Shown: piece by piece, positions 5,986 through 61,244 of the stretch
Layout: each line of letters starts with the position of its first letter
Numbering within the stretch: position 1 is the stretch's first letter
NCBI RefSeq assembly: GCF_013019105.1
Contig: NZ_BLTE01000004.1
Coordinates: forward strand, 124,001-188,000
DNA: 64,000 bases
Source of the DNA: Fundidesulfovibrio magnetotacticus
Lineage (GTDB): Bacteria; Desulfobacterota; Desulfovibrionia; Desulfovibrionales; Desulfovibrionaceae
Reading direction: 5' to 3'
Translations under genes and position numbers: made by a program
Notes under the pieces: model-generated
Told to the model about the DNA's origin: nothing
The model's input: only the letters and a program-made list of their open reading frames with translations
Database searches by the model: none

Positions 5986-6110
5986 GGAAATTCCGGAGGC
6001 GCAGGCAGCACCAAGGCGGATGCCAGCCGCCAAGCGGTGGACGATGCATGAGTGGCAAGGATGCCTGAACTCCAAAGTGGTCCGGTGAACCGTGCGGCGT
6101 GTTGGGCGCG

Positions 6111-6139
6111 TTGACGTCCAGCGTGATCCAGAATAGTTG
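6111..6139 (+). promoter_or_regulatory. Weak sigma-70 promoter candidate, possibly leaderless
   Basis: TTGACG (6111-6116) and TAGTTG (6134-6139) are separated by 17 bp. Initiation would fall about at the ATG of the ImmA gene (6146), which has no visible ribosome-binding site. A leaderless transcript would explain this, but the -10 match is poor. Confidence 0.25.
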
Positions 6140-6145
6140 TTCTGC

Positions 6146-7354: not shown

Positions 7355-7815
7355 TGCGCTACATTTTCGATTCCAACGTGCTCATCACGGCCCATCGGTG
7401 GGACTTCACGTTCGATGGCTCGCCGTATTTTTGGGATTGGCTGGTGTCTCTCGGTTCTCAGGGAGTGGTGGGAATTCCCGAGTGCGTGTTCATGGAAATC
7501 AACAGGAGTACGGACCAGCTTTCTAAGTGGCTGAAGAAAAACCGGAGTGTGTTTTTCATTCCGACGGAAGATGCAGCATTGTCCGTGCAGGCGGCCCTTT
7601 CAGCCTACACAACGCACTCCGAGAGGGATGTCGAGCGGATTCCGGATGCCGATCCCTTCGTGGTGGCGCATGCGCTGTCGTCTGGATCGACAGTGGTGAC
7701 GTATGAGACACCCAAACCCAATGCCGCCCCGCACAACCGAAAAATACCCGATGTTTGCGCGCTGCTAAACGTCGCGTGCGTGCGGTTCCCACGTTTTCTC
7801 TGGGATATGCGCTAG
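7354..7815 (+). CDS. DUF4411 PIN-like protein, probable toxin
   Basis: A 153-residue protein beginning MRYIFDSNVLITAHR. The first acidic residue of a PIN-type nuclease fold (DSN) is in place, and further acidic residues appear as FMEINRS and DADPFVVAHAL. This pattern fits DUF4411, a PIN-like family usually encoded beside XRE/ImmA proteins. The overlap with the upstream ImmA gene supports a two-gene toxin-antitoxin-like unit, with this as an RNase-like effector. The nuclease role is inferred from the family; no activity is demonstrable from sequence. Its stop lies about 50 bp from the convergent PhnA-domain gene. Confidence 0.75.
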   Translation: MRYIFDSNVLITAHRWDFTFDGSPYFWDWLVSLGSQGVVGIPECVFMEINRSTDQLSKWLKKNRSVFFIPTEDAALSVQAALSAYTTHSERDVERIPDADPFVVAHALSSGSTVVTYETPKPNAAPHNRKIPDVCALLNVACVRFPRFLWDMR

Positions 7816-7863
7816 CTGTGAACAACGTCTGTAGACTTCAAAGTTAACCCGCCTCTTCCCGGC

Positions 7864-8085
7864 TCAGGCCTTCTTCAGGAAGCAGGTCTTGAGCACGAGG
7901 CCCTTCACCTTGTCGGCGTTGCACTCGATCTCGGCGGGATCGTCCGTGAGGCGGATGTTCTTGATGAGCGTGCCGCGCTTGAGCGTCACGCTTGATCCTT
8001 TCACTTTGAGGTCTTTGGTCAGCGTGACGCTGTCGCCGTTGTTCAGAACGGTTCCGTTGGCGTCCTTCACGATCACGTCGTCCAT
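7864..8085 (-). CDS. PhnA/YjdM-domain small protein
   Basis: A 73-residue protein, MDDVIVKDANGTVLNNGDSV, that matches the C-terminal SH3-like domain of the PhnA/YjdM family. Full-length members have about 110 residues with an N-terminal zinc ribbon; that part is missing here. The ATG at 8083-8085 has GGGAG upstream, so the short form appears genuine; the longer open frame upstream is Arg/Pro-rich and unlikely. Despite its name the family has no proven role in phosphonate use. It is convergent with the DUF4411 gene and not obviously linked to the CheA operon. Confidence 0.75.
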   Translation of the reverse strand: MDDVIVKDANGTVLNNGDSVTLTKDLKVKGSSVTLKRGTLIKNIRLTDDPAEIECNADKVKGLVLKTCFLKKA

Positions 8086-41149: not shown

Positions 41150-44100
41150 ATGGCGCAGAGCCGATACGCCCGTTTCGAGTTCGACGTGGAGGGCCAGCCG
41201 GCCGGGCGCTTCCAGGTGGTGGAGTTCCAGGGGCAGGACGCCCTCTCAACGCCCTACGCCTTCACGATCACGCTGATCTGCCAGGGCCAGGGGCCGTCCC
41301 CGGCCGAGGTGGTGCGGCGCAAGGCCACCCTGCGCATCAACGGCGAAACCACCTCGAACGCCTACTCCGGGGTGGTCTTCGCCTACCAGTACATCCAGAG
41401 CCGGGGCGACGTGAGCTTCTTCCGGGCCGTGCTTTCGCCCGGCTTCAAGCTCCTGACGTACACCCGGCAGAATCAGATCTTCCTGGACCAGAGCCTGCCG
41501 CAGATCCTCTCCACGGTGTTCGGCCAGTGCCGGTTCACGGCCTTCGACCTGCGCCTGTCGGCCGATTATCCCCCCCTGGAATTCGTGTGCCAGTACAACG
41601 AGTCCTGCCTGGACTTCGTCTCGCGCCTCATGGAGCACCAGGGCATCTACTACGCTTTCGAGGAGCAGGAGGCGGGCGAGGTGCTTGTGGTCACCGATTC
41701 GCTCATGAGCCACACCCCCCTCTCGGCAACGCCCTGCCTCTACCTGCCGCCCTCGGGCATGGACGACCCCCAGCGCGAGAGCGCCGTGCACCAGCTGGTG
41801 CTCGACCACAGGATCGTGCCCGCCGTCGTGGTGCTCAAAGACTACAACTACCTGCGCCCGGACCTGGAACTCCTGGCCGAGGCCCCCGTGGCCCCGGACG
41901 GCGTGGGAGTGCACTACCACTACGGCGACCACTTCCTCACCCAGGACGAGGGCGCGCGCCTGGCGCGCATCCGCGCCGAGGAGCTGCTGGCCGGGCAGGA
42001 GGTCTTCGCGGGCGCGAGCACGGCCATGCTCCTGCGCGCGGGCGGCCTGGTCACCCTGGCGGGCCACCCCCTGGAGGCCTGCAACATCCAGATGCTCGTC
42101 ACCGGCGTGGAGCACAAGGGCCGCGACAAGACCCCTCTCACCGCAGGCCTGGAGCACGCCGCCACCGCCTCGGACCAGGAAAACTACTACCGCAACACCT
42201 TCCATTCCATGGCGTCCCGGCGGCAGTTCCGCCCGGCGCGCTCCACGCCCCGCCCGCGCATCGCCGGCCAGTTCCACGCCAAGGTGGACGCCGAGGGCGA
42301 GGGCCAGTACGCCATGATCGACGACCTGGGGCGCTACAAGGTGCGCCTGCCTTTCGACCTGGCCGGACGCCCCGAAGGCCAGGCCTCCTGCTGGCTGCGC
42401 CTGGCCGAGCCCTACGCCGGACCCAGGTACGGCCTGCACTTCCCCCTGCTCAAGGGCACCGAGGTGCTGCTCTCCTTCATCGACGGCGACCCGGACCGGC
42501 CCGTGATCACCTCCGCCGTGCACAACGGCCAGAACCTCAACCACGTGCGCTCCAACACCAACGCCATCAACGCCATCAAGTCCGCCGCCAACAACCAGAT
42601 CGTCATGGGCGACCTCCAGGGCCAGGAGTTCATCGGCCTCTATTCGCCCTTCCACGAGACGAGCATCGCCCTGGGCTCCACCAAGCCCGGCGGCGGGGGC
42701 AGCATGGAGTTCAAGACCAAGGGCGAGAGCCAGACCCTGGTGCTGGGCGACGAGAACAAGCTCGTGGGCGGCACGTCCATCGAGGGCACGGCGGGCGTGA
42801 AGGCCGAGATCACGGCGGGCATGGCCCTGGAGATCATGGGCGGATGGAAGTCCGAGCTGGTGATGGGCAACCACTTCGGCATGGTGGTGGGCAACGGGCT
42901 GGAGATGGGCAGCGAGTCCAAGTCGATCTTCGACACCAAGGAGATCCAGGGCACCACGGGCATCGAGATCCAGGCCGGGCTCTCGGAGGCCTACGTGGCC
43001 GCGCTCACCTCCATGCGCAACTGGTACACCGCGGCCGCGGGCCTCACGGCCGTGGCGGCCGTGCTTGGCACCGCCGCCTCCGAAACCTGGACCAAGGACG
43101 GCTGCTGGCACGACCAGGGCGACTCCGCCATCGACGAGGGCCTGGGCATCACCTTCACGGGGCTCACGGGGGTGGTGGGCATCATCGCGGGCTACTGCGG
43201 CTACAAGATCCAGCAGCAGCTCAACGCCATCCAGACCGGCAGCCTCTGCAAGGCCGTCACCGAAGTGGCCATGAACAAGGACGGCTTCGAGGTGGAGGTG
43301 AACCGCTTCAACCTGGGCGCGCTCTCCCTGAGCAACGTCTCCCCCCTGCCCACGCCCATCACCCTCAAGGCCGTGGGACAGAACGCGGCGAAGCAGACCG
43401 TGGAGTCTTTCCTGCAATTCCGACAGGACGCGGCGGGCATCCGGCTGGTGAACATGGAGCCCTCCACCGGCGGTCCGGAACCCTCCATGCTCGTGATGAG
43501 CAACGCCAACCTCGTCTCCCTGCTCATCCCCGACGCGGGCCAGCTGAAGATGGACGCCACCGCCCAGGGCGCTCCGGTGGTCACCCTCCAGGCCATCGAG
43601 GGCCAGGAGAAGTCCACGGTGCAGTTGGACAAGCACAAGGTGCTCCTCCAGGCCCCGGACGGCTCCGCCACCGTGGAGGTGCAGAAAAACCTCGTGGCCC
43701 TGGCCTCCGCCCAGGCCAAGACCACGGGCGTGAACATCAACGCCAGCGATGTCCTGCTGAACGCCACCGGCAAGGTGGACATCATGGGCGGGCTGGTGAA
43801 GGTCCAGGGCGGCAAGGTCTATCTGGGCGGGGCGGGAGGGGCCTCCATCACGGGCGACCTCACCGTGGACGGGGCCACCACGCTCAAGGCCACCAAGACC
43901 GGCGACCTGAGCGTGAACGGCAACGTGAACATCACCGGCAGCATGAGCGCCCAGTCGGTCGCCGCGGACAGCGCGTCCGTGAAGAACGACCTCTCCGTGG
44001 GCGGCAAGACCACCACGAAGAGCGCGGACGTGAAGGACGACCTCAACGTGGGCGGCAAGTCCACCTCGGGCAGCGCGAACGTGAAGGGCGACCTCAAGGT

Positions 44101-44215
44101 GGGCGGCAAGGCCGACGTGGACGGCAACGTGAGTTCCGGACACAGGATATCCGGCAGGGACAACGAGCTCGACGACGATCCGTTCTTCAACATGTTCAAG
44201 AACCCGAACAAATAG
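41150..44215 (+). CDS. vgrG: VgrG spike protein, extended with repeats and hydrophobic insert
   Basis: A 1021-residue T6SS spike protein, longer than the 600-700 residues of simple VgrGs. The gp27-like base is about 1-370 (RYARFEFDVEGQPAGRF start). A gp5-like OB domain is about 375-460 (GEGQYAMIDDLGRYKVRLPF). Beta-helical spike repeats follow. Two hydrophobic stretches are unusual: about 625-644 (WYTAAAGLTAVAAVLGTAAS) and about 667-687 (ITFTGLTGVVGIIAGYCGYK). The C-terminus has three tandem 17-residue repeats of the form xVKxDLxVGGK (43976-44128), then an acidic tail NELDDDPFFNMF. ATG 41150, with AGGAGG 8-13 bp upstream. It heads the spike island. Confidence 0.9.
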   Translation: MAQSRYARFEFDVEGQPAGRFQVVEFQGQDALSTPYAFTITLICQGQGPSPAEVVRRKATLRINGETTSNAYSGVVFAYQYIQSRGDVSFFRAVLSPGFKLLTYTRQNQIFLDQSLPQILSTVFGQCRFTAFDLRLSADYPPLEFVCQYNESCLDFVSRLMEHQGIYYAFEEQEAGEVLVVTDSLMSHTPLSATPCLYLPPSGMDDPQRESAVHQLVLDHRIVPAVVVLKDYNYLRPDLELLAEAPVAPDGVGVHYHYGDHFLTQDEGARLARIRAEELLAGQEVFAGASTAMLLRAGGLVTLAGHPLEACNIQMLVTGVEHKGRDKTPLTAGLEHAATASDQENYYRNTFHSMASRRQFRPARSTPRPRIAGQFHAKVDAEGEGQYAMIDDLGRYKVRLPFDLAGRPEGQASCWLRLAEPYAGPRYGLHFPLLKGTEVLLSFIDGDPDRPVITSAVHNGQNLNHVRSNTNAINAIKSAANNQIVMGDLQGQEFIGLYSPFHETSIALGSTKPGGGGSMEFKTKGESQTLVLGDENKLVGGTSIEGTAGVKAEITAGMALEIMGGWKSELVMGNHFGMVVGNGLEMGSESKSIFDTKEIQGTTGIEIQAGLSEAYVAALTSMRNWYTAAAGLTAVAAVLGTAASETWTKDGCWHDQGDSAIDEGLGITFTGLTGVVGIIAGYCGYKIQQQLNAIQTGSLCKAVTEVAMNKDGFEVEVNRFNLGALSLSNVSPLPTPITLKAVGQNAAKQTVESFLQFRQDAAGIRLVNMEPSTGGPEPSMLVMSNANLVSLLIPDAGQLKMDATAQGAPVVTLQAIEGQEKSTVQLDKHKVLLQAPDGSATVEVQKNLVALASAQAKTTGVNINASDVLLNATGKVDIMGGLVKVQGGKVYLGGAGGASITGDLTVDGATTLKATKTGDLSVNGNVNITGSMSAQSVAADSASVKNDLSVGGKTTTKSADVKDDLNVGGKSTSGSANVKGDLKVGGKADVDGNVSSGHRISGRDNELDDDPFFNMFKNPNK
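43976..44128 (+). repeat. Three in-frame 51-bp repeats in the first VgrG tail
   Basis: The protein units begin SVKNDLSVGGK, DVKDDLNVGGK and NVKGDLKVGGK; each is exactly 17 residues. The pattern resembles the shaft repeats of phage tail fibres and polymer-forming beta proteins. Confidence 0.7.
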
Positions 44216-44260: not shown

Positions 44261-46843
44261 GTGAAAAAGATCAAGCCGGAGAAGCTCTCCCTCACGCATC
44301 GCTGCACGGTCTTCAACAAGGACAACCTGCTGTTCGTCAATCTGTTGGGGGCTTTCTCCTTCGACCGCCCCGACGAGCCCCTGGGCGAGGACGTCCTGTG
44401 GGCCGCCCTCAAGGAGGCCTGCGGCCCCCACGTGTTCGACGAGGGCTACCTGAAGTCGCGCGGGGAGTTCATCGTGCACGGCAGCTGCCACGCGCCGGGC
44501 GGCGCGCCGGTCCGGGGCTGCGAGGTGTGCGTGCGCGTGGGCGGCCTCTCCAAGCGCCTGACCGTCTTCGGGGACCGCTACTGGGTTGGCGAGGGCGCCA
44601 TGACCCAAGCCACCGACCCCGAGCCCTTCACCTCCATGCCCCTGGGCTGGGAGCGCGCCTTCGGCGGCAAAGGCTACAACCGCAACCGCCTGGGCAAGGG
44701 CGCGGTCCCCATGACCCTGCCAACAGGCGAAACCCTGCGTCCCCTCCCTAACCAGGAAGACCCCTGCGCCCTGATCACCAACCCCGGCGACCGTCCAGAA
44801 CCCGCCGGACTCGGCCTGCTGGGCAGCCTGCGCTTCTGGCGCGGCAGGGGCCTTGGCGCCTACGGCGAGAAATGGTTCGCGGAACACTGGCCCTACATCG
44901 CGCCGGACTACGACCTGGACCTCATCAACACCGCCTGCCCGGATCAGTGGATCGAGGGGTACTTCAAAGGCGGCGAGGACGTGGAAATCCACAACATGCA
45001 CCCGCGCGAGCCCGTGCTGCGCACCCGCCTGCCCAGGCTGCGCGCCAGGGCCTACATGCGCCGGGCGATCTGGGACCGCATCGGCTACAACGAGCTGGAG
45101 CCCCACTGGGACACGGTCTGGCTCCTGCCCGAGCGCAAGCTCATGCTTTGCGTCTGGCGTTCCATGTTCCTGGTGTCCAGCCAAGGCGCGCGCGACGTCA
45201 CCCACGTCTGCGCCGAGCTGGAGCACCAGGACGCGCCCCCCAAGCCCCGCCAGCACTACCTCGACGTGCTGGGCGGCGCACCCCTGGAGCCGGAGTCCCA
45301 GGCTCCCGGAGCGCCGCCGCCCCCTCCCTCCCAGGCGGCTCCGGCCTCCGCGCCAACGCCCGCACCCGTGGCGGCCCCGGCCTCCGTTTCCGCCCCCCAG
45401 GCCGAGACGCCTCCCCCTCCGCCCATCCCGGACCCCGAGATGGAGGCCATGCTCGAAAAGGTGCGGGGCATCCTGGCCAAGCAGGGCATCAGCATCCCCA
45501 CGGCCCCTCCGCCGCCCCCGGACCCCTTCGGCCTGGGCGGCCCGAACCCCGAAGAGGCCATGGCCAAGGCCGGGGATCTCCTCAAGACCACCGGCGAGGA
45601 GCTTCAGCGGACCCTGGCGGCCCAGGGCATTCCCGTCCGCCCCGTGGACCCCGCCGCGCCGCCCGATCCGCGCAAGCTCCTGGCCGCCCTGGACGCCCTG
45701 GACGTGCGCGACGCGCGTCTCGCCGAGGGGCTCAAACAATTGCGCGCCGCCCTCGCCGAGGACGCGGCCTCCCCGCCTCCGCCTCCGACGGGCGCGGCCC
45801 CCGAACCCCCGGCCGCCGCCACCGCGCCTCCGCCTCCGCCGTCCTCCGGCCTCACGCGCCTGGAGGTGCTGCGCCGCGTGGGGCAGGGGCTCTCCCTGGC
45901 GCGCCAGGACCTCACCGGCCTGGACCTTTCCGCCGCGCCCCTGGCCGGGGCCGACCTGCGCGAGGCCATCCTGGAGAACGTGAGCCTCAAGGGCGCGGAC
46001 CTGGCCGGGGCGAATCTCTCCGGGGCCATCCTGCCCGGGGCGGACCTCTCCGGGGCCGCCGCCTCCCGAGCCGACTTCACGGGCGCGTTCGCCCACGGGG
46101 CCAAGGCCGCCGGAGCCGCCCTGGCGGGCGCGGTCCTCGCCCGGGCGGACTTCGCGGGCGCGGACTTCACCGGGGCCGACCTCACCGGGGCCGACCTCTC
46201 CCGGGCCAGCCTGGACAAGGCCCTCCTGCCTGGGGCCGTGCTGGCCGGATGCCTCGCCCCCGGCGCGCGCTTCGCAGGGGCCGACGCCACGGGGGCGGTG
46301 TTCCGCAAGGCCCGCATGGAGCGCGCGGGGTTCGCCTCCGCCCGCCTGGACGGGGCCGACTTCGAGCAGGCGGGCGTGCCGGGGGCCGACTTCCTCAACG
46401 CCTCGGGGCGCAAGGCGTGCTTCGCCGGGGCCGACCTCTCTGGCAGCCAGGCCCCGGGCGGGGCCGCCTTCCAGGAGGCGGACTTCACCAGCGCCAGCTT
46501 GGCCGGGGCCACCTGGACCGACTGCGACCTCTCCCACGCCCGCCTCTCCGGGGCCGTGCTGGACGGAGCGAGCCTTCGCCGCACGCGCCTGGAGAACGCC
46601 GACCTCACGCGCTCCACGGCGCGCTCCGCCGTGCTCGACGAGGCGGACCTCTCCGGGGCGCGCCTCGTGGCCGTCAACGCCTTCAAAGCCTCCCTGCGCG
46701 AGGCTTCCCTGCACAAGGCCGACATGGGCGACTCCAACTTCTTCCTGGCCGACTTCTTCCGCGCCCGATTCCACGAGACCAACCTGGCCGGAAGCAACCT
46801 GGGGCGCACCATCCTGGAAAAATGGCGCTCCATCAAACTCTAG
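44261..46843 (+). CDS. DUF2169 adaptor fused to a long pentapeptide-repeat domain
   Basis: An 860-residue two-part protein. Residues 1 to about 330 match DUF2169 (SLTHRCTVFNKDNLLFVN, FTSMPLGWERAFGGKGYNRN), a T6SS family that includes an Agrobacterium adaptor loading a PAAR-like effector on VgrG. Residues about 336-533 form a Pro/Ala-rich linker region interrupted by two charged helical stretches. From about 547 to the end runs a right-handed pentapeptide-repeat helix (A[DN]LxG units, about 60 repeats). The GTG at 44261 has GGAG 8 bp upstream. Pentapeptide helices in known proteins mimic DNA (Qnr, MfpA) or act as scaffolds; a cargo or effector role here is inferred. Confidence 0.85.
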   Translation: MKKIKPEKLSLTHRCTVFNKDNLLFVNLLGAFSFDRPDEPLGEDVLWAALKEACGPHVFDEGYLKSRGEFIVHGSCHAPGGAPVRGCEVCVRVGGLSKRLTVFGDRYWVGEGAMTQATDPEPFTSMPLGWERAFGGKGYNRNRLGKGAVPMTLPTGETLRPLPNQEDPCALITNPGDRPEPAGLGLLGSLRFWRGRGLGAYGEKWFAEHWPYIAPDYDLDLINTACPDQWIEGYFKGGEDVEIHNMHPREPVLRTRLPRLRARAYMRRAIWDRIGYNELEPHWDTVWLLPERKLMLCVWRSMFLVSSQGARDVTHVCAELEHQDAPPKPRQHYLDVLGGAPLEPESQAPGAPPPPPSQAAPASAPTPAPVAAPASVSAPQAETPPPPPIPDPEMEAMLEKVRGILAKQGISIPTAPPPPPDPFGLGGPNPEEAMAKAGDLLKTTGEELQRTLAAQGIPVRPVDPAAPPDPRKLLAALDALDVRDARLAEGLKQLRAALAEDAASPPPPPTGAAPEPPAAATAPPPPPSSGLTRLEVLRRVGQGLSLARQDLTGLDLSAAPLAGADLREAILENVSLKGADLAGANLSGAILPGADLSGAAASRADFTGAFAHGAKAAGAALAGAVLARADFAGADFTGADLTGADLSRASLDKALLPGAVLAGCLAPGARFAGADATGAVFRKARMERAGFASARLDGADFEQAGVPGADFLNASGRKACFAGADLSGSQAPGGAAFQEADFTSASLAGATWTDCDLSHARLSGAVLDGASLRRTRLENADLTRSTARSAVLDEADLSGARLVAVNAFKASLREASLHKADMGDSNFFLADFFRARFHETNLAGSNLGRTILEKWRSIKL

Positions 46844-46895
46844 CCGCCGAGGCCCCCATGACCCGCCACCGCACCGCCCAGCATCGGGAAGCCCC

Positions 46896-47951
46896 GTGAA
46901 CCGCCAGGAACTTCTGGACCTCCTGGACCAGGGCCGGGACACTGAGCGCCTGGACCTCACCGGGGCCGACCTGGCGGATCTGGACCTTTCCGGGCGCGAC
47001 CTGGGCGCGGCCACGCTGCGGGGCGCGTCCCTCGCGGGGGCAAGCCTGCGGCAATCCCGCCTCGCGGGCGCGGACCTGGCCCAGGCCCGCCTGGACGGGG
47101 CCGATCTCGCCGGGGCCGATCTCTCGGGCGTCTCCCTGGACGGGGCGGACCTGCGCGGGGCGGACCTCTCCGGCGCGCGCCTCGCCATGGCCCGGCTCCC
47201 CGGGGCGCGCCTTGGCGGTGCGCGGCTCTCCGGGGCGGACCTGCGCGGGGCGGACCTCTCCGGCGCGGACCTCTCCGGGGCCGTCCTCTCCGGGGCGGAC
47301 CTGCGGCAGGCGACGCTCCGGGGAGCGGTCCTCAGTCGCGCCGACTGCTCCGGCGCGGAGATGGAGGGCCTGTCCCTGGCCGGTCAGCGCTTCGCCGGGT
47401 GCTCCTTCGCCAAGACCTTCCTGGACAAGGCGGACCTCTCCCAGGCCCGCTTCGAGGGTTGCAATCTCTTCATGGCCTACCTCGACGGCGCGCTCTGCCG
47501 CGAGGCCGTCTTCGAGGGGTGCGACCTCACCCAGGCCTCCCTGGCCGGGGCCGATCTTTCCGGCGCGTCGCTCCTCGGGGCCAAGGCGCGGTGCGCGCAT
47601 TTCGACGGGGGCCAGGCCCCGGGCGCGACCCTGCACGGAGACTTCGCCATGGCCAGCTTCGAGCGGGCCGGACTCGCCGGGGCGGACCTGGACGGCGCGC
47701 TGCTGCCCAACGCCATCCTGACCGGGGCGTCCCTACCAGGGGCGCGGCTCGCTGGCGCGGACCTCTCCCGGGCCGACCTCTCCCACGCGGACCTCACCCG
47801 GGCCGATCTTTCCGGGGCGAACCTGACGCTCGCCAATCTCCACCGCACGGTTTTGCAGGACGCCGTGCTCGACGGCGCGGCCACCGAAGGCGCGCGCCCG
47901 ACCGACCCGGCCCTGGCCGCCGCCGAGGACTGGACCCCGCCCCCGGCCTGA
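46896..47951 (+). CDS. Pentapeptide-repeat protein
   Basis: A 351-residue protein made almost wholly of pentapeptides (LDLTGADLADLDLSGRDLG and so on), from about residue 18 to about 330, with a short charged N-terminal helix and a Pro-rich end. No signal peptide. The GTG at 46896 has GGGAAG a few bases upstream. It lies between the DUF2169 fusion and the DUF3540 gene, all on one strand with short gaps. It resembles the C-terminal half of its neighbour and may have arisen by partial duplication; role unknown, perhaps cargo or immunity-like partner. Confidence 0.85.
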   Translation: MNRQELLDLLDQGRDTERLDLTGADLADLDLSGRDLGAATLRGASLAGASLRQSRLAGADLAQARLDGADLAGADLSGVSLDGADLRGADLSGARLAMARLPGARLGGARLSGADLRGADLSGADLSGAVLSGADLRQATLRGAVLSRADCSGAEMEGLSLAGQRFAGCSFAKTFLDKADLSQARFEGCNLFMAYLDGALCREAVFEGCDLTQASLAGADLSGASLLGAKARCAHFDGGQAPGATLHGDFAMASFERAGLAGADLDGALLPNAILTGASLPGARLAGADLSRADLSHADLTRADLSGANLTLANLHRTVLQDAVLDGAATEGARPTDPALAAAEDWTPPPA

Positions 47952-47982
47952 CGCCCGGGCGCACGAACCCCATGGAGCCATC

Positions 47983-48633
47983 ATGAACGCATTGGCCAAG
48001 ATGAACCCCGGCGGCGAGGAGCCCGTGCTGAGCCTCGCCACGGTGACGGGGGCCCTGGACGGCCGCCTCCTGGTGCGCCGGGGCGGCGCGGTGTTCCCCG
48101 CGTTGCGCGCGGCGGGCTGCCTGCTGGAGCCCGAACCCGGCGATCTGGTGCTCGCCGTGAACGAACCCTCGGGCGCGGCCTTCGTGCTTTCGGTGCTCGT
48201 GCGCGCCTCCCAGGCCCCGGGCCGCGCGGGCCTGGAGGAGGGCCTGACGCTGCACGCCGGGCAGGGGCCTTTGACCCTTGATGCGGGGCGCCTGGGCCTG
48301 CGCGCCGGTCAGCTTCTGGAGATGTCCGCGCCCCGGGCCACGCTGGAGGCGGACAAGGCCGAGGTGCGCGCCGGAGCGCTCTCGCTGGCGGGGGAGAGCC
48401 TCACCCAGGCCTTCGCCCGCATCCGCACCGCCGCCGGGGCCATGGAGCGCGTGGTGGGCCGCCTGGTGGAGCGCGCCACGCGGGTGCTGCGCCGCGTGGA
48501 CGAGTGCGAGGACGTGCGCGCCGGGCGCTACCGCCTGGACGCGGAGGACTCCCTGCGCCTGGACGCCGGGGAGATGCGCCTCGAAGCGCGCGGCAACGTG
48601 GACGTGGACGGCCGGAAAATCCGCCTGGGTTGA
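47983..48633 (+). CDS. DUF3540 T6SS-associated protein
   Basis: A 216-residue cytoplasmic protein. The N-terminal half (LSLATVTGALDGRLLVRRGGA, EPEPGDLVLAVNEP) has the small beta-barrel pattern of DUF3540. The C-terminal part is alternating helical and beta-strand sequence ending RLEARGNVDVDGRKIRLG. DUF3540 is found beside VgrG, DUF2169 and DUF4150 genes in many genomes; its role is unproven but an assembly or spike-tip function is likely. It starts at ATG 47983 and is followed 10 bp later by the PAAR-like gene. Confidence 0.8.
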   Translation: MNALAKMNPGGEEPVLSLATVTGALDGRLLVRRGGAVFPALRAAGCLLEPEPGDLVLAVNEPSGAAFVLSVLVRASQAPGRAGLEEGLTLHAGQGPLTLDAGRLGLRAGQLLEMSAPRATLEADKAEVRAGALSLAGESLTQAFARIRTAAGAMERVVGRLVERATRVLRRVDECEDVRAGRYRLDAEDSLRLDAGEMRLEARGNVDVDGRKIRLG

Positions 48634-48643
48634 GGAGCACACG

Positions 48644-49054
48644 ATGTTTGCCACCACCAACGAGACCGGCATGGCCGGAGCCTTCCCCGACGTGTGCCTC
48701 ACCCCCGCGCCCCCCGCGCCGGACCCCGTGCCCATCCCCTACCAGAACATGGCCATGATGCAGAACGCCAAGGGCTCCACCTGCGCCTCCAAGGTGTTCG
48801 TCAAGGGGGCCAAGGCCGTCACCCTTAAGACCGAGATCGCCCAGAGCGTGGGCGACGAGCCGGGCACGGCGGGCGGCGTGGCCTCGGGGCGCATCCAGGG
48901 GCCGTGCCGCTTCACCTCGGGGAGCCTCAAGGTGGTCATCGAAGGCGAGGCCGCCGTGTTCCAGGGCTCCGCCACCAAGCAGAACGGCGACAACCCCAAC
49001 ACCGTGGGGGTGGTGAGCAACCCCAGCCAGACAACGGTGATGTACATGGAATAG
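48644..49054 (+). CDS. DUF4150 PAAR-like spike-tip protein
   Basis: A 136-residue protein beginning MFATTNETGMAGAFPDVCLT. It carries the DUF4150 features VPIPYQNMAMMQNAKGST and KNGDNPNTVGV-like sequence (KQNGDNPNTVGVVSNPSQT). DUF4150 folds like PAAR and caps the VgrG trimer, usually with an effector attached; here it is a stand-alone tip with no extension. GAGGAG precedes the ATG at 48644. It lies directly between DUF3540 and the second vgrG. In Agrobacterium a DUF4150-bearing effector requires a DUF2169 adaptor, matching this gene set. Confidence 0.88.
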   Translation: MFATTNETGMAGAFPDVCLTPAPPAPDPVPIPYQNMAMMQNAKGSTCASKVFVKGAKAVTLKTEIAQSVGDEPGTAGGVASGRIQGPCRFTSGSLKVVIEGEAAVFQGSATKQNGDNPNTVGVVSNPSQTTVMYME

Positions 49055-49178: not shown

Positions 49179-51416
49179 ATGCCTGAAGCCGTTCCCCCCC
49201 GTTCGGAGTTCGCCGTTTCCGGCCTGTCCGCCGACACCTTCCAGGTGGCCCGTTTCACCGGCCGGGAGTCTCTCGCGGGGCTCTACGAATTCGAAACGTT
49301 CCTGGCCGCGTCCGGACCAGGGCCGGACCCGGAAGCCGTGCAATCCGGACGGGCCACGCTCACCGTGCGCCGCCCCTCGGGGTGCGACATCTTCTGGCAC
49401 GGCATCGTGCGCGAGTTCGACCAACTGGAGCGCAACCACGGGCTCACCTACTACCGAGCCGTCCTGGTCCCCCGCGCGTGGTGGCTCACCCAGACCCTGG
49501 GCACGCGCATCTTCCTCGACGCGGACCTGACCCGCGTGCTGGACTCCGTGTTCCGCGAGGCCGGGCTCCAGCAGGGCCTGGACCTCGAATTCCGCCTGCG
49601 CGACACCTACTCCCGGCGCGAATGGATCTGCCAGTACGCCGAGACCGGCTGGAACTTCGCCAGCCGACTCATGGAGCGCGCCGGGGTCTACTGTTTCTTC
49701 GAGCAGGAGGCCGACCGCGAGAAGCTGGTGATCACGGACACCTTCATGTCCCACATGCCCCTGGGCAACGACGCCCATCTGGCCTACCGCCCGGCCTCGG
49801 GCCTGACGGACGCGCAGTCCCCGGAGCATGCCCGGACCTTCCGCCGCTGCTTCCGCCAGACACCCCGGGGCGTGCGCGTGCAGGGCTACAACTACCGCAC
49901 CTGCAAGACCCTCCAGGCCACGCGCGGCGTGGTCGGGCACGGTCAGGTCCAGGTGTACGCCCACGAGGACGACCCGCGCACCAACACCGAGGCCGAGCGC
50001 ATGGCCAAGGTCCGCGCCGAGTCCCTGAACTGCCGGCGCGCGCTCTACCACGGCTCCACCACGGCCCCATTTCTGCGGCCGGGCTGCACCTTCCGGCTTC
50101 TGGACCACTACGACGAGTCCTTCAACCGCGAGTACCTCGTGGTGGAGGTGGTCCACGAGTGCCGCCAGGAGTCCGCTCTTTCCACCCGGGGCCTGCAGGA
50201 CGTTCCGGAGCAGACCACCTACCGCAACGACTTCGCGGCCATCCCCTCCAACGTGCAGTTCCGGGCCGAGATCGCCACGCCCCGGCCCAAGGTCTCCGGC
50301 CCCCTCACGGCCTGGATCGACGGCGAGGGCGACGGACACTACGCCGAGGTGGACGCGCTGGGCCGCTACAAGGTGCGTTTCGCCATGGACCTCTCGGACC
50401 GCGAAGGCGGCAAGGCCTCCCACTGGATACGCCTCATCACGCCCTACGCCGGGGAAGGCCACGGCCTGCACCTGCCCCTGCACAAGGGCGCGGAGGTGCT
50501 GGTGCTCTTCCGCAACGGCAACCCGGACAAGCCCGTGATCGCCGGGGCCGTGGCCAACCAGGCCCAGAAGATGGTGGTGAACCAGGACAGCAGCACCCAG
50601 TGCCGCCTGACCACGGCCGGAGGCAACCTCCTGCACGTGGAAGACAGGGACGGAAGCCAGCGTTTCCTGATCCAGAGCCCCGTGCAGAACTCCTGGGTGC
50701 GCATCGGCGCGCCCAACGACCCGCCCCCGCCGCCCGACTGGGACTGGAGCAGCCTGCCCACCAAGGACGGCATCGCCCTGGCCACGGGCGGCTCCTTCAG
50801 CGTGAACTGCCAGGTCTGGAACACCGTCACCCTGGGGGAGCAGTCGTCCACCGTGGTGGGGGCCAAGGCCGTCACCGTGCTGGGCGAGGCGCTCAACGTG
50901 AACCTGGGGCCGCGCCAGGACGTGATCATCCCACGCAAGACCGACTTCACCCCCGCGCGCTCCGGCATCCGGGCCGCCATGGAATACCTGCACCTGCGCC
51001 GCGCCGTGGTGGTGGGCGGACAGGACCAGGCCCTGATCGTGGACCAGCAGCAGGTGCTGGGGCAGCAGAACAACGTGGTGGGGGGCCAGCAGCAGGTCGT
51101 CGCCCAGCAGGACAACGTCGTCGTGGACCAGCAGCAGCTTCTGGCGAACAACAACAACGTGATCGGAGACCAGCAGCAGCTCGTCGCCCAGCAGGACAAC
51201 GTCGTCGCGGATCAGCAGCTGATCGTGGCGAACAACAACAACATCGTCGCGGAAAACAACAATGTTGTCGTCAACCAGGAGAATGTTGTCGTCGAGCAGA
51301 ACAATCAGCTTGTCGAAGTGAACAACATCGTTGTCAACCAGAACAACGTCGTGCAGGAGCAGGCCAACCTGGGCGTAGTGCAGAACAACGTGGTGGCCGA
51401 TGTGAACTTCGTCTGA
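49179..51416 (+). CDS. vgrG: VgrG spike protein with Asn/Gln heptad-repeat tail
   Basis: A 745-residue T6SS spike protein. The gp27-like base is about 10-370 (FQVARFTGRESLAGLYEFET), followed by a gp5-like OB domain (GDGHYAEVDALGRYKVRFAM, about 385-405) and a short spike. A Pro/Trp segment (NDPPPPPDWDW) and a beta region (residues about 530-620) follow. The final 125 residues (621-745) are seventeen tandem heptads of the form x-x-Q/N-Q/N-Q/N-aliphatic-aliphatic, then ADVNFV. Both VgrGs of the island share the base but have unrelated tails. ATG at 49179; no strong Shine-Dalgarno is evident (GGGAGG 5-10 bp upstream is a candidate). It is the last gene of the island. Confidence 0.9.
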   Translation: MPEAVPPRSEFAVSGLSADTFQVARFTGRESLAGLYEFETFLAASGPGPDPEAVQSGRATLTVRRPSGCDIFWHGIVREFDQLERNHGLTYYRAVLVPRAWWLTQTLGTRIFLDADLTRVLDSVFREAGLQQGLDLEFRLRDTYSRREWICQYAETGWNFASRLMERAGVYCFFEQEADREKLVITDTFMSHMPLGNDAHLAYRPASGLTDAQSPEHARTFRRCFRQTPRGVRVQGYNYRTCKTLQATRGVVGHGQVQVYAHEDDPRTNTEAERMAKVRAESLNCRRALYHGSTTAPFLRPGCTFRLLDHYDESFNREYLVVEVVHECRQESALSTRGLQDVPEQTTYRNDFAAIPSNVQFRAEIATPRPKVSGPLTAWIDGEGDGHYAEVDALGRYKVRFAMDLSDREGGKASHWIRLITPYAGEGHGLHLPLHKGAEVLVLFRNGNPDKPVIAGAVANQAQKMVVNQDSSTQCRLTTAGGNLLHVEDRDGSQRFLIQSPVQNSWVRIGAPNDPPPPPDWDWSSLPTKDGIALATGGSFSVNCQVWNTVTLGEQSSTVVGAKAVTVLGEALNVNLGPRQDVIIPRKTDFTPARSGIRAAMEYLHLRRAVVVGGQDQALIVDQQQVLGQQNNVVGGQQQVVAQQDNVVVDQQQLLANNNNVIGDQQQLVAQQDNVVADQQLIVANNNNIVAENNNVVVNQENVVVEQNNQLVEVNNIVVNQNNVVQEQANLGVVQNNVVADVNFV
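51039..51398 (+). repeat. Tandem 21-bp (heptad-coding) repeats in the second VgrG
   Basis: Seventeen in-frame units code for sequences such as VDQQQVL, GQQNNVV, AQQDNVV and ANNNNVI. A 27-nt block is identical at 51097-51123 and 51181-51207, an offset of 84 bp (four units), which points to recent expansion by duplication of four-unit blocks. Confidence 0.85.
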
Positions 51417-51899: not shown

Positions 51900-54413
<2,514 letters not shown>

Positions 54414-54432
54414 GTCGTCTCCTTGAAATTCC

Positions 54433-55599
54433 TCACCAGGGACCGCGCAGGGACGCCGCATCCACGGCGTCCAGCCAGTGTCCCGCGAGAACCCCCTCCG
54501 GCGCGTGCGAGCGAAGCTGGAACACGCAACCGGAACAGCCGGTCAGTATCCGGTCACCGGGCCGGGGTCCATAGAAATCGAGGCATTGACGCGCCACCTG
54601 GGCCGAAAGCCCGGGGGCCGAAAGTTTGAGCGCGCCGCCGAAGCCGCAGCACGGGCCTTGGCCCGTTCCCTCCGCCCGGCCGCCCGTGGCGGCCCGCAAG
54701 AGCTCCCGCTCGCCGTCCGCCCCGTGGCAGGGCGCATGGTGGATGATCCGGCCGGGAACCTGCCCCGTCTCCGCGAACTCCACACGCGAAGCCAGCCGGG
54801 CCAAAGGCTCGATCCCTTCGCTCCACAGCCGGGCCTCGCCGGGTTCCCAGCCCAGGTCCTCATTGGCGTAGCCGCGCAGAGCCTCCAGGCACGTGGCGCA
54901 AAACACCGCCACCAGGGGCCGTCCGGCCGCGCGCCACTCGGACACGTTGCGCCGCATCATCGCGCCGCGCGCCTCCAGAAGGCCCGCTCCGGCGAGCGTC
55001 TTGCCGCAGCACGCGAACCCGGGGTCGCCAGACACCGCGTACCCCAGCCCCGTAAGCAGCGCGGCCGCCTTGGCGCTCCATCCCGGCGACACGTGCCGGG
55101 CGGCGCAGCCCGCGAAAACTACGGCCTTGCGATCGTTCCCGCAAGCATTGAATCGCACCGGACAAAGCCACGGCTCGAACCCCGGGCCGCCGCCCATGGC
55201 CCGCAAATCGCCCAGCGCCGCGCCCAGCGCGCCCGACTTGTACGACGGCAAGAGCCCGGCCACCGTGGCCATCACCGGCCACAACACCCCGGCCCCCGCC
55301 ACCCAGCGGCCCCACAGCCATCCCTCGAAGCCCGGACTCGTCGCCTTCATCCGAGAAACCGACTCAGCCGCGCTCAATTTGAACGGGCACGCGCCCCGGC
55401 AACGACCACACCCCAGGCACATCCCCGCCAGACGCCGCGCCGACGCCGCGTCCACCACGCCGCCAGACGAAGACTCCAGCAAATGCTTCGCGCGCGGCGA
55501 CAACTGCTCCCGCGACGTGGCCGCGAACAATGGGCACACGTCCAGGCACTTGCCGCACATCACGCAGGACCGGGCAGGGGCGGTCACAAAGCACTCCAC
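54433..55599 (-). CDS. GlcF/LldE-type Fe-S oxidase subunit
   Basis: A 388-residue electron-transfer subunit with two [4Fe-4S] ferredoxin motifs ([11 protein letters not shown] and [12 protein letters not shown]) and two CCG-type heterodisulfide-reductase-like domains ([19 protein letters not shown] then [21 protein letters not shown]). It pairs with the FAD subunit at 56145-57527 to oxidise lactate or glycolate and pass electrons to the membrane pool. The start is a GTG (55599) without a good ribosome site, but the first Cys motif begins at residue 12, so little can be removed. Separated from its FAD partner by 545 bp of palindromic DNA. GlcE is absent. Confidence 0.85.
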
Positions 55600-57566: not shown

Positions 57567-59867
57567 CTAGGGAACCGTCGGGGTGGGCGGGATTGCCGTT
57601 TGTGCCGAGTTGATGAGCAGCCTGGTGAAGGCGATGCCAAGTTCCCGGCCGTCCTGAGGGGCGAAGGTCGCTTCCGGGTTGGCCGTATCATGGTTCCAGG
57701 CTTTCAGCTTGAAGCTGAGAGTGTTGATGCCTTTTACCGTGTGAAGCGTCGTTGCGGTTTCGGCAGCTGGCGCCAGCCAAGGGGTTACGCTGAGACTCTT
57801 GTGATCGGCAATTGGCGTGCCGTTGAAAAGTACAAGCACATCCTGTGCGTTGATGGGGTTTGAGAATGCGTACTCGATGTTGATGTCCCGTGGGCTTTCT
57901 TCGATGAGGCGAATTGTTGCTTCCGGTCCCATGGTCCAGCGGTAAGAGACGCCGTCGGATGTCTCTATATCGCCGATGCCGGATTCGGAGGTTTCCAGGG
58001 TTGAAGAGACGAAGTGCTCGCTGTTTATGGTGTTGGCATAAATCCGGATGTTCTTGATGCCAAGGACCGTGTTGTCGATGTTCATGTACCCAGGGTGCGT
58101 AGATTTCCGTTCCATAAAAAAGCGGAGTGTGAGGATGTCCTGGCTGTGGTTGCGTATGAACGCAACAGCTCGACCTGAGTCGTCGAATTGAAGCTTGGCG
58201 TCGTAGAACGATGCGCCGTCAAAACTGTACTCGGCGCGAAGGATGTCCTTCTCGGGGTACTGGCAGGATGATTGAACTTGTACTTTGAAGAATACGTCGT
58301 CGGTTGTCTTTGGCATTGATACGCTGTAGTCGAAGTGTGACAAGGTGTCGTTTGCATGAGGTATGATTGTGAATCCGAATGTTAGTAATATGTTGATGTT
58401 GCGAATGTTTGTCGTTCTTTCGAGAAATGATAACGGTTCTGCTGTGAGCGTCAAGGACTTTGGGAACGATGTCATGGAGTCCTGAATGTGTTGCACAGGG
58501 ATTGTGTAGATGTGGCCCCATGGGAAGGCATCATCGCTGGCGGAGGGGTATTTCTTGAGGAATTCATTTTCGTTGGATGCAAGGTGCGAGAAGTCTCCAA
58601 AAGTAATGATGCGAAACTTGTCGATGTTATGGTGTGTTGTGAGAAATACGTTGCTGAAAAGAGTTTTGCCCGATCCCGAGGCGTACCATTGGGCAGCATC
58701 CAGCCAACTGCTGTCTGTGGGCACGGGGAGAATATTTTGGTCGGTCTCCACGAGCGATTCGGCGACCTGTTTGTACGTTCCCGTGTGGCTGTCCATGGAG
58801 TAATACCTGTTGCCTGTTATTGTGGTGTAGATTATGGCAATGTATGCAATGGCCAAGGTTGCCATGCAGAATCTGATGTGGCCTATAATGTTGTAAAGTC
58901 CATTTGCGATGATGATGATTGCAGGGGCCATGAGGAAGGTGAGGTGCCACGCGTTGAAGTAGGAGCTGTAGCGGATGATTGCGAGCGGGATGGCTGGAAC
59001 TGTGCAGTATAGGGCGAGAAGTGCCGTTCTCTTTCTTGCCTCTCCAGGGGTGAGAAATGCGCATGCCGCGAGCGGGATCAGAATCAATGAAATCCATGGA
59101 GTTGTCCACGGCAAGATATTCTCTGGAATTAGTTCGAAATACCGTACAATGGTATCCAGTGGATTGCCGGGTGTGCCTGTGGAATATTTTCCAAGAAGAA
59201 AGAGTGCCGTTGGTATGTATGCCAGTGAAACGATCGCGGAGAACCATAGTCCGCGTTTGAAGCAGTTTGAATTGCGTTCAAGCAGGCAGGAAACAAGGAC
59301 TATGCAGCATTGCGCTCCAATGATGAGCACGGTCAGGAATTGCAACGGGGCAAAGAGACAGTTTGTGATGAAAGTTAGGGCAATCCAACGACGTTTATGT
59401 TCGTCAATGAACCGGAACGTCCAGTAGATCGAGAATGTCGAGAGAAGAATGATGAGCGAGTAGGGCCGAACTTCGCGTGATAGGAGGATATGGAGGCTGT
59501 TTATGGAGAGAATGCCTACCGATATGACTGCAACGCGATCGCCATAGAGTTTCCTGGCAAGGAAGAAGATGGCCGCGATGGAGAGTATGCCTGCCAAGGC
59601 AGAAGGAAGGCGCAGGACGAAATCGTTTGTTCCAAAAGACATCATGGCCTTGATAAACAAATGGTAATACGGCGGGTGCGTGTCGATGCCGGTCGTTGCG
59701 CGTTCTATGATGTAGCGAGCGTCATGTTTTGCTGCCAGCGGAACAACGATTTCGTCGAGCCACATCGAAGGAACATCAAGAGCATGCAGGCGCATTGCAG
59801 CCGCGGCGAGGATCATGAATGCAAGAAGCACAATCGATTTAGCGCCGACTTTGTTGGGGTGGCTCAT
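57567..59867 (-). CDS. GT39-type (PMT/ArnT-like) membrane glycosyltransferase, low GC
   Basis: A 766-residue protein. Residues 1 to about 420 hold roughly ten hydrophobic segments. The first external loop carries the acidic pair Asp38-Glu39 (MWLDEIVVP), the catalytic hallmark of the GT-C/ArnT-PMT group that uses polyprenyl-phosphate sugars. The C-terminal half is a soluble beta-rich domain with no recognised family. The gene has markedly lower GC and many codons that its neighbours avoid (ATA, AAT, TTT), so it is probably foreign. It would glycosylate a lipid or envelope polymer outside the inner membrane. ATG 59865-59867. Confidence 0.82.
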   Translation of the reverse strand: MSHPNKVGAKSIVLLAFMILAAAAMRLHALDVPSMWLDEIVVPLAAKHDARYIIERATTGIDTHPPYYHLFIKAMMSFGTNDFVLRLPSALAGILSIAAIFFLARKLYGDRVAVISVGILSINSLHILLSREVRPYSLIILLSTFSIYWTFRFIDEHKRRWIALTFITNCLFAPLQFLTVLIIGAQCCIVLVSCLLERNSNCFKRGLWFSAIVSLAYIPTALFLLGKYSTGTPGNPLDTIVRYFELIPENILPWTTPWISLILIPLAACAFLTPGEARKRTALLALYCTVPAIPLAIIRYSSYFNAWHLTFLMAPAIIIIANGLYNIIGHIRFCMATLAIAYIAIIYTTITGNRYYSMDSHTGTYKQVAESLVETDQNILPVPTDSSWLDAAQWYASGSGKTLFSNVFLTTHHNIDKFRIITFGDFSHLASNENEFLKKYPSASDDAFPWGHIYTIPVQHIQDSMTSFPKSLTLTAEPLSFLERTTNIRNINILLTFGFTIIPHANDTLSHFDYSVSMPKTTDDVFFKVQVQSSCQYPEKDILRAEYSFDGASFYDAKLQFDDSGRAVAFIRNHSQDILTLRFFMERKSTHPGYMNIDNTVLGIKNIRIYANTINSEHFVSSTLETSESGIGDIETSDGVSYRWTMGPEATIRLIEESPRDINIEYAFSNPINAQDVLVLFNGTPIADHKSLSVTPWLAPAAETATTLHTVKGINTLSFKLKAWNHDTANPEATFAPQDGRELGIAFTRLLINSAQTAIPPTPTVP

Positions 59868-59906
59868 GTAAAGCGTGTTCCGTAAGGATGGAGTTTGAAG
59901 AGAGCT

Positions 59907-61244
59907 TCAGGAGAGCATGTAGCGCAGGGCGTAGCCGAAGGAGGGATAGGCCCACGCGATGTCCATGATCTCGCTCTGCCGCAGCCCCAGGCGCATGACG
60001 AGCATGGCCTGGTTGGCCACTTCGGCGGCGGCCTCGCCCAGGTAGGCGATTCCCAGGAGGCGTCCGCCGTCGGGTTCCAGCAGGAGCTTGTAGCCGGAGC
60101 GGCGGATGCCCAGGCGGGTGAGTTCGGGCCATGTGAGGTCCCGGGCCTGCCTCACCTCGAAGGGGACGCCCGCCGCGCGGGCCTGGGCCTCGGTGAGCCC
60201 CACGGCGGCCAGGGGCGGGTGGGTGAAGACGCAGCTGGGCACGAGGGAGTGGTCGGGCCGGACGTGGTCGCCCTCCAGGATGTTGGCGGCCACGGCCTTG
60301 GCCTCCATGACGGCCGTGGGGGTGAGCTGGGCGATGCCCGCGGCGTCCCCGGCGGCGTAGACCTTGGGGTTGGTGGTCTTGAGGAAGGGGTCCAGGACGA
60401 GGCGGCCGTTGCGGGACTCGATGCCTGCGGCGTCGAGGTCCAGCCCGTCCAGGTCCGGCACGCGCCCCGAGCCGTTGACCACCAGGTCCGCTTCGAGCGT
60501 CGCGCCGTTCTCCAGGCGCACGGCCAGTCCCGAGGCGGTCCGTTCGACGCGGCGCGGCGGCGCGCCGGTGAGGATCTCCACGCCCAGTTCCCGGGAGGCT
60601 TCCAGGAGGGCTTCCACCATCTCGGGCTCGAAGCGGCGCAGGAGCCGGTCGCCCCGGGCGGCAACGGTGACCCTGGCCCCTGCGATGGCCGCGATCTGGG
60701 CGAACTCCAAGGCGATGTACCCGCCGCCCAGGAAGAGGATGCGCCCGGGCAGCTCCTTGAGGTTCAGGAAGTCGTCGCTGGTGGCCAGGAGCTCCGCGCC
60801 GGGGATGTCCAGGGCGTGGGGCCGCGAGCCGGTGGCCAGCAGGATGTGCCCTGCGCTCAGCTCCTGGCCGTCCACCAGCAGGGTTTCCGTTCCGGTGAAG
60901 CGGGCGCGGCCGTGGTAGAGGTCGATGCCGGCCATTTCCAGCGAGGCTTCGGCGCGGGGGGGCACGGAGTCCACATAGGACTGCTTGAGCGCCGCCAGCT
61001 CCGGCCAGCTGACGGAGAGCTGGCCGCGCACCCCGTTGCGGCGGCCCATCTCGCGGGCGCGGGCAACGGCGTGGGCGGTCTCGGCGAGCACCTTCTTGGG
61101 CTCGCAGCCGCGCAGGGCGCAGGTGCCGCCGAAGTCCCCGCCTTCGGCCAGGGCCACGGAGCGTCCGGCTTTGACCAGGATGCGGGCGGCGGTGGCCCCG
61201 GCCGCGCCGGAGCCGATGACGAGCACGTCGTAGGATGGGGACAT
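59907..61244 (-). CDS. Pyridine-nucleotide disulfide-family flavoprotein, atypical C-terminus
   Basis: A 445-residue FAD- and NAD(P)-binding protein. It has the FAD-binding start YDVLVIGSGAAGATAA and the redox pair Cys42-Cys47 (GGTCALRGCEPKK), as in glutathione and mercuric reductases, plus VNGSGRVPDLDGLDL and the FAD-contact YAAGDAAGIAQLTP. The C-terminal His-Glu dyad (HPTxxE) that activates the thiol is replaced by AYPSFGYALRYMLS. It probably uses the disulfide pair in some other way or acts as a different NAD(P)H oxidoreductase. Monocistronic; start ATG 61242-61244 with GGAGG nearby. Confidence 0.8.
   Translation of the reverse strand: MSPSYDVLVIGSGAAGATAARILVKAGRSVALAEGGDFGGTCALRGCEPKKVLAETAHAVARAREMGRRNGVRGQLSVSWPELAALKQSYVDSVPPRAEASLEMAGIDLYHGRARFTGTETLLVDGQELSAGHILLATGSRPHALDIPGAELLATSDDFLNLKELPGRILFLGGGYIALEFAQIAAIAGARVTVAARGDRLLRRFEPEMVEALLEASRELGVEILTGAPPRRVERTASGLAVRLENGATLEADLVVNGSGRVPDLDGLDLDAAGIESRNGRLVLDPFLKTTNPKVYAAGDAAGIAQLTPTAVMEAKAVAANILEGDHVRPDHSLVPSCVFTHPPLAAVGLTEAQARAAGVPFEVRQARDLTWPELTRLGIRRSGYKLLLEPDGGRLLGIAYLGEAAAEVANQAMLVMRLGLRQSEIMDIAWAYPSFGYALRYMLS

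Follow-up and report, generated by a model that had tools for sequence, protein, structure and literature searches.

Asn/Gln heptads in a VgrG of Fundidesulfovibrio magnetotacticus as a probable polar-core version of a constant-length coiled-coil tail

The closest described relatives of the locus presented here are the Class III Tvp systems, whose model VgrG, the VgrG1 of Serratia marcescens, carries an elongated beta-prism (PMC13373197). In that system the tip-loading cap is first built on TvpC and then passed to VgrG1, and its authors discuss a long spike that reaches deeper into the membrane complex, although a long beta-prism is a tendency of Class III Tvp rather than a strictly defining trait (PMC13373197). 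Other work has shown that PIPY/PAAR-like tips are chaperoned by DUF2169 proteins (PMC11883445). A second field of comparison is that of trimeric coiled coils with polar cores, in which N@d or Q@a layers take the central core position (PMC4786415, PMC12933892) and a Qxx[I/V]xxx pattern has been defined (PMC12933892). To these can be added the stalks of trimeric autotransporters and the alpha/beta coiled coils, heptad fibres with polar core layers, the beta-layers of the latter being marked by the motif [aliphatic]-A-T-K-x-[DE] (PMC4786415, section 9). In the literature searched, VgrG, trimeric autotransporter and coiled coil were not found together, which does not imply their absence in print elsewhere, and the word 'coiled' does not occur in the main text of PMC13373197.

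The DNA analysed here, called the window, is a stretch of 64,000 nucleotides of F. magnetotacticus (contig NZ_BLTE01000004.1), and its features are collected in Table 1. The Class III Tvp gene set, that is, a DUF2169-pentapeptide fusion, a separate pentapeptide-repeat gene, a DUF3540 gene and a small PAAR-like gene, is complete at 44261-49054, and thus the locus resembles that of Serratia in combining a VgrG with TvpAB, TvpB, TvpC and a small PAAR-like protein (PMC13373197). In both Serratia VgrG1 and the window VgrG the C-terminus is prolonged by a long extension that has no toxin domain, but that of Serratia is modelled as a beta-prism of 186 Å (PMC13373197), whereas that of the window is heptad-periodic, predicted helical and of constant length. 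The identity of ORF 49179-51416 as a VgrG is supported by two Pfam domains, Phage_GPD (residues 29-330, 221.8 bits) and Phage_base_V (residues 394-457, 41.7 bits), both over the cut-off, as well as by two NCBIfam models, including TIGR03361 VI_Rhs_Vgr with 311 bits (cut-off 186); the ORF therefore contains the gp27-like hub and gp5-like OB domain that characterise VgrG/TssI. As for the PAAR-like gene, its family PF13665 corresponds to DUF4150. The second vgrG of the locus is absent from the own-genome matches of the tail model described below, and its tail contains a 51-bp tandem repeat at 43968-44110 (2.8 copies, 84% matches, 17-residue unit). Elsewhere in the window the G+C content falls to 0.50 at 58001-60000 and to 0.58 at 6001-8000, the other 2-kb bins lying at about 0.64-0.75; these two bins, which correspond to a 766-aa membrane-like ORF (57567-59867) and two ORFs (6137-7815), are perhaps acquired DNA.

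Table 1. Coordinates in the window of the vgrG gene under study, its tail and the neighbouring genes.
Feature	Position	Strand	Basis
vgrG with the heptad tail, 745 aa, ATG start	49179..51416	+	Phage_GPD, Phage_base_V, TIGR03361
Tail module, residues 590-745 (156 residues)	50946..51413	+	Anchor-to-C-terminus count; AlphaFold2 helix
18 tandem heptads, residues 619-744	51033..51410	+	Phases 1/2 aliphatic; phase 5 Gln/Asn in 16/18
C-terminal cap, residues 738-745, hydrophobic at -8, -4, -2, -1	51390..51413	+	Same pattern in sister tails
27-nt block, first copy	51097..51123	+	Exact repeat, offset 84
27-nt block, second copy	51181..51207	+	Exact repeat, offset 84
PAAR-like spike-tip gene, 136 aa, PVPIPY stretch, start codon seen	48644..49054	+	PF13665 Tox-PAAR-like, 115.8 bits (cut-off 31)
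DUF3540 gene (TvpC-type)	47983..48633	+	PF12059, 150 bits (cut-off 27.9)
Pentapeptide-repeat gene (TvpB-type)	46896..47951	+	PF00805, 260 bits
DUF2169 + pentapeptide-repeat gene (TvpAB-type)	44261..46843	+	PF09937, 249 bits; PF00805, 179 bits
Second vgrG of the locus, 1021 aa, different tail	41150..44215	+	PF05954, 232 bits

The heptad unit of the window VgrG consists of two aliphatics, a small residue and four mostly polar residues rich in Asn/Gln, and it is repeated contiguously, with no indel, up to the last residue but one of the protein. V, I, L or M occupies phase 1 in 17 of the 18 heptads and phase 2 in as many, whereas Asn or Gln is found at phases 5, 6 and 7 in 16, 14 and 16 of them, respectively. 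The original prediction of 17 heptads starting at residue 621 agrees with this count, which gives 18 contiguous units from residue 619 and 17 complete ones from 621. An aliphatic phase statistic of 633 was reached by none of 20,000 residue shuffles (shuffle maximum 401). At the DNA level, the 27-nt block said to recur at an 84-bp offset is indeed identical in both copies, and Tandem Repeats Finder detects an 84-bp period with 85% matches in the tail. The tail belongs to the coding sequence and keeps its frame, because its third-position GC matches that of the VgrG body (codon positions 1/2/3: tail 0.74/0.10/0.89, body 0.68/0.48/0.93). Moreover, the best relative found elsewhere in the genus, 53% identical over 687 residues, likewise has a Q/N-rich tail that is in frame, contrary to the possibility, raised as a refutation, that the tail would be out of frame in relatives. 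Minus-strand ORFs over the tail, together with one minus-strand profile match, were taken as shadows of the repeat. Altogether, chance or a frame artefact as the source of the array is rejected. The array is thus real and non-random and lies beyond the usual beta-prism, as had been proposed, and neither a recognised toxin domain nor an effector family was found at the C-terminus of this VgrG in Pfam or NCBIfam; a conventional effector fold, named as a further refutation, was not found either. A comparison of the tail with the phage collection gave no match, and nothing specific speaks for the amyloid-like assembly that had been suggested.

The genome encodes a T6SS, with VipB/TssC on C13 (445 bits) and on C22 (68.7 bits) and no match in the genome for PF06761. 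Of its nine vgrG genes, two lie in the window, a tandem array of six is found on contig C22 and C17 has one. The six consecutive genes on C22 (L009:10575-19995, L010:40-5671) carry equal-length but different coiled-coil tails, and beside the array we find one DUF2169-pentapeptide/pentapeptide/PAAR-like set, a DUF3540 gene and tssK/tssL/tssM-type genes (TssK, DotU and IcmF-related_N). A tail model, built as a profile of 17 tails with that of the window included and used at a threshold of E 0.001, had matches in 41 of the 288 family genomes, 51 of the 348 order genomes and 34 of 395 genomes sampled across the phylum, many of these last matches being weak; within the genus, G001 and G003 out of seven genomes gave none. 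A subset of all these matches was read as loci. Plasmids searched with tblastn returned distant VgrGs, all below 60% identity. Other genera of the family contain stand-alone proteins of ~190-240 aa in which the prism-plus-tail model finds a match although there is no VgrG hub (L026, L028, L070, L074, L075, L076, L079, L081), their lengths differing mostly by sevens.

Counted to the C-terminus from the F-x-P-type anchor, where the beta-prism ends, the tail comprises 156 residues in the window and 155 in each of the 18 sisters of the genus that were read. These sisters comprise the seven VgrGs of the same genome that are encoded outside the window and eleven from four other genomes of the genus (two from G002, four from G004, four from G005 and one from G006). 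They form 14 clusters at 40% identity, with a median ungapped identity of 0.17, so the residue count is the same in sequences that are almost wholly different. A plain motif search without a profile gave the same length for most sisters, one of 16 not being anchored by the motif. In this regard, the total from the RIG motif ranges from 231 to 268 in the 15 same-genus sisters anchored there and the segment just upstream of the tail varies by up to 37 residues, so the length is not simply frozen along the whole protein. Beyond the genus, 33 of 36 rows could be anchored, with 8 rows of 155 residues and 7 of 156, 11 that deviate from 155 by a multiple of seven in either direction, 4 that fall short of 156 by such a multiple and 3 that fit neither series, counts in which the profile sets the anchors, some of these look doubtful and the heptad profile favours gaps of seven. 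With the caveat that the rows are related, a constant tail length within the genus is well supported. Consequently, a length-variable array, as originally envisaged, does not agree with the data, and of the idea that the array is expanding there remains the internal duplication, which is real, but not the growth of a tail whose length is constant in the genus. The C-terminus is likewise uniform, with a hydrophobic residue (V/I/L/M/F/Y/W/T) at positions -1, -2 and -4 in 18 of the 18 same-genus tails and at -8 in 17. Two points were counted against our main reading, the 156 instead of 155 residues of the window tail and the unclear first half of the tail of the C17 vgrG (L011:7152-9947), which is exactly 155 residues long but has a first half that is not coiled-coil-like and contains two prolines.

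Equal lengths might also arise if co-expressed VgrGs formed heterotrimers, their tails being matched to zip together rather than serving as a ruler. The six tandem genes on C22 with equal tails would fit such an arrangement, and VgrG heterotrimers have been reported in literature cited by PMC6960284. Nevertheless, the core residues of the tails (Q/N, His or aliphatic) are so different that a mismatch would be expected in mixed trimers, the tail of the G005 orthologue, an orphan, also has 155 residues, and tails of other genera are 155 or 156 as well, all of which makes this explanation unlikely.

The 24 tails of exactly 155 residues (the 18 of the genus and six of the eight from other genera) can be stacked without gaps; the C17 tail, being unlike the rest, was left out of the mean profile. 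The power of the resulting stack of 23 tails is 34.4 at a period of 3.5, 15.2 at 7 and 0.2 at 8, and in leave-one-out comparisons the best shift was 0 for 22 of 24 tails and -7 for the other two. Set by its C-terminus, the window tail falls in the same register as the stack (0.52 at -7, 0.49 at 0), whereas its N-terminal half is one residue off (0.41 at -1, 0.43 at +6), and therefore the extra residue of the window sits near the start of the tail. Proline accounts for 4 of 3600 residues in the 24 tails, two of the four in that of C17, against 741 of 14007 in the bodies. The beta-layer motifs of alpha/beta coiled coils occur four times each in 4 of 17 sister VgrGs and once in a fifth, with none in the bodies and none in the window tail. 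A sister tail of the TIGQHTQ type matched the trimeric-autotransporter stalks 3s6l (1.1e-4) and EibD 2xzr (0.004), but its top solved match was a splicing factor (5.6e-8), so repeats of this type draw chance matches. AlphaFold2, run on the window tail alone as a single sequence, gave in the best of five models one helix from residue 592 to 744 (pLDDT 83.9), the other four reaching 31-45. The same procedure applied to the tail of the other VgrG in the window produced strands at low confidence (pLDDT 49.6), so the helix is not a default output of the program. The prediction refers to a single chain, and a three-helix trimer is what we infer beyond it. Val and Asn are poor helix formers, which was counted against a coiled coil, as were the low scores of the other four models.

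The stack also bears on the idea that the tail simply continues the VgrG beta-prism as a very long prism of the kind modelled for Serratia VgrG1. The Class III Tvp genes at the locus would speak for it, as this class tends to longer prisms (PMC13373197). On the other hand, the second half of that model is, according to the authors of PMC13373197, less confident. In general, the prism repeat of VgrG is made of octads, which do not appear in the 23 stacked tails given the negligible power at period 8, and the helical coiled-coil motifs of the sister tails, the near lack of proline and the AlphaFold2 helix likewise make a continued prism very unlikely. The original prediction had further held that a coiled coil is improbable because the two aliphatics are adjacent, an objection that does not stand: on a 3.5-residue wheel both aliphatics flank phase 5, which puts Gln/Asn in the core, and ordinary coiled coils are found among the sister tails that share this register. 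Its alternative of a threefold beta-solenoid or fibre was a good guess in the fibre, but the solenoid is disfavoured by the helical best model and by the beta-roll match of the orthologue, which is below the cut-off. Overall, the Asn/Gln tail of the window is likely, with good confidence, to be coiled-coil in nature.

The beta-roll deserves a closer view, as the window tail scores 41.1 bits with PF21300 (LbR_Ice_bind; 35.8 in the genome search, cut-off 30), and among solved structures it is closest to the grass ice protein 3ult (8.4e-5), with which it shares a 7-residue repeat rich in Val and Asn. The tail could accordingly be a beta-roll like that of the grass ice-recrystallisation-inhibition protein, with two heptads per coil, Val inside and Asn ladders at the turns. 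The repeat consensus of this family is xxNxVxG, yet Gly stands at the position aligned to the Gly of that repeat in 1 of the 18 window heptads, so the conserved Gly is missing from the tail. Moreover, the match falls below the cut-off in the orthologue (18.6 bits), a coiled-coil paralogue reaches 17.2 bits, and the remaining 8 of the 10 sister tails compared with the profile gave no match at E 0.05. The best AlphaFold2 model is all helix, and the tail shares its register and length with coiled-coil tails. We therefore regard a beta-roll as quite unlikely and the PF21300 match as probably a look-alike.

Returning to the coiled coil, the core stripe of the stack is formed by phases 7, 4 and 1, which correspond in the window to the first aliphatic, the Gln/Asn at the fifth position and the second aliphatic. 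The first aliphatic is the strongest stack phase and takes position d, so that Gln stands at a and the second aliphatic at e; an alternative register, with the second aliphatic at a and Gln at d, was refined by the stack, and Gln/Asn lies in the core under either one. At this central core position (stack phase 4, window phase 5) the fraction of Gln/Asn is 0.89 in the window and 0.72 in the orthologue, that of His is 0.72, 0.72, 0.50, 0.44 and 0.39 in five sisters, and the remaining rows have mostly aliphatic residues or Ala, mixed or other residues. The core compositions thus form a graded series rather than a new fold. Two sister species contain near-perfect TIGQHTQ/TIGQHDN arrays in their vgrG tails (L050:13669-15951, L051:7575-9806), with His at the central core position and the length of 155 kept despite a differing heptad order. 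Like the polar-core trimeric coiled coils (PMC4786415, PMC12933892), the window tail has I or V at the paired core position, since its core Gln is followed by I/V at +3 in 9 of 13 cases and by Leu in 3 more, and its three core Asn are preceded at -3 by L, V and V. It differs from them in extent: the passages on polar cores in the two papers deal with isolated layers or with engineered stretches of one to three, whereas Gln/Asn takes the core position in 16 of 18 consecutive heptads of the window. The likeness to autotransporter stalks and alpha/beta coiled coils (PMC4786415) extends to those sister tails with the beta-layer motif, but here we deal with a fixed-length tail at the C-terminus of a secretion-system spike, and the window tail is devoid of that motif. 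When the 348 order genomes were searched with a two-sequence Q/N profile, the window and G005 were the two strong members, and six further genomes matched weakly (best 2.2e-6).

The best reading of these data is that the Asn/Gln heptads are probably the polar-core form of a coiled-coil tail of fixed length by which VgrG reaches beyond its beta-prism, a judgement that covers the structure together with the ruler-like length, the docking of the tip being held more weakly. As far as the sequences indicate, such a tail, from anchor to C-terminus, is shared by the sisters in its count of 155 (156 in the window), its register, its near-absent proline and its hydrophobic cap. Since VgrG is a trimer, three tails would wind into a parallel three-stranded coiled coil of ~23 nm (155 residues with a rise of 1.5 Å). 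The Gln/Asn of phase 5 would face the axis flanked by the two aliphatics, so that nearly each heptad would give a buried amide triad, with water or anions between layers, as in those of the Qxx[I/V]xxx and [I/V]xxNxxx types. The C-terminal cap would probably present the face on which the PAAR-like (PIPY) tip protein of the neighbouring gene docks, itself presumably chaperoned by the DUF2169, pentapeptide and DUF3540 proteins. That the function of the tail is to act as a coiled-coil extension with a constant cap carrying the tip is a proposal to which we would give an even chance. The genome has two DUF2169 and two DUF3540 loci for eight VgrGs with such tails, so interchangeable spikes under one cap set would be sensible; counted against a shared cap are the other VgrG of the same locus, which lacks the tail, and the orthologue in G005, around which none of the cap genes of the locus was found in 16 kb.

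A different use of the tail would be that of an effector, with a mechanical or membrane-active role like the one suggested for the extension of Serratia VgrG1, a protein that has no toxin domain and has nevertheless been linked to membrane depolarisation (PMC13373197). In the window, no separate effector is encoded directly downstream. However, the stretch between 51416 and secA (51900-54461, minus strand) contains no candidate immunity gene, a single unannotated ORF of 86 aa being the one same-strand, gap-confined ORF of at least 80 aa, and the tail is mostly polar and Asn/Gln-rich and recurs in eight VgrGs of the genome, which renders such a role highly improbable.

Taken jointly, a T6SS ruler and an amide ladder, that is, trimeric tails of 22 heptads that keep a constant length from prism to tip while their sequence drifts, with the rod of the window wholly Gln/Asn-cored, form a tentative picture that falls somewhat short of an even chance. 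If the ruler reading were true, a shared tip-loading complex could accept many interchangeable VgrGs, and the amide-ladder reading would provide a long natural hydrated ladder able to fold, unfold and refold on firing. There would then be a second way of lengthening the T6SS spike, with a coiled coil instead of a longer prism, and a constraint of length on the spike tip that can be tested, in a system for which the part played by spike length is under open discussion (PMC13373197). In addition, such a long natural run of buried amide layers would probe how polar the core of a coiled coil can be.
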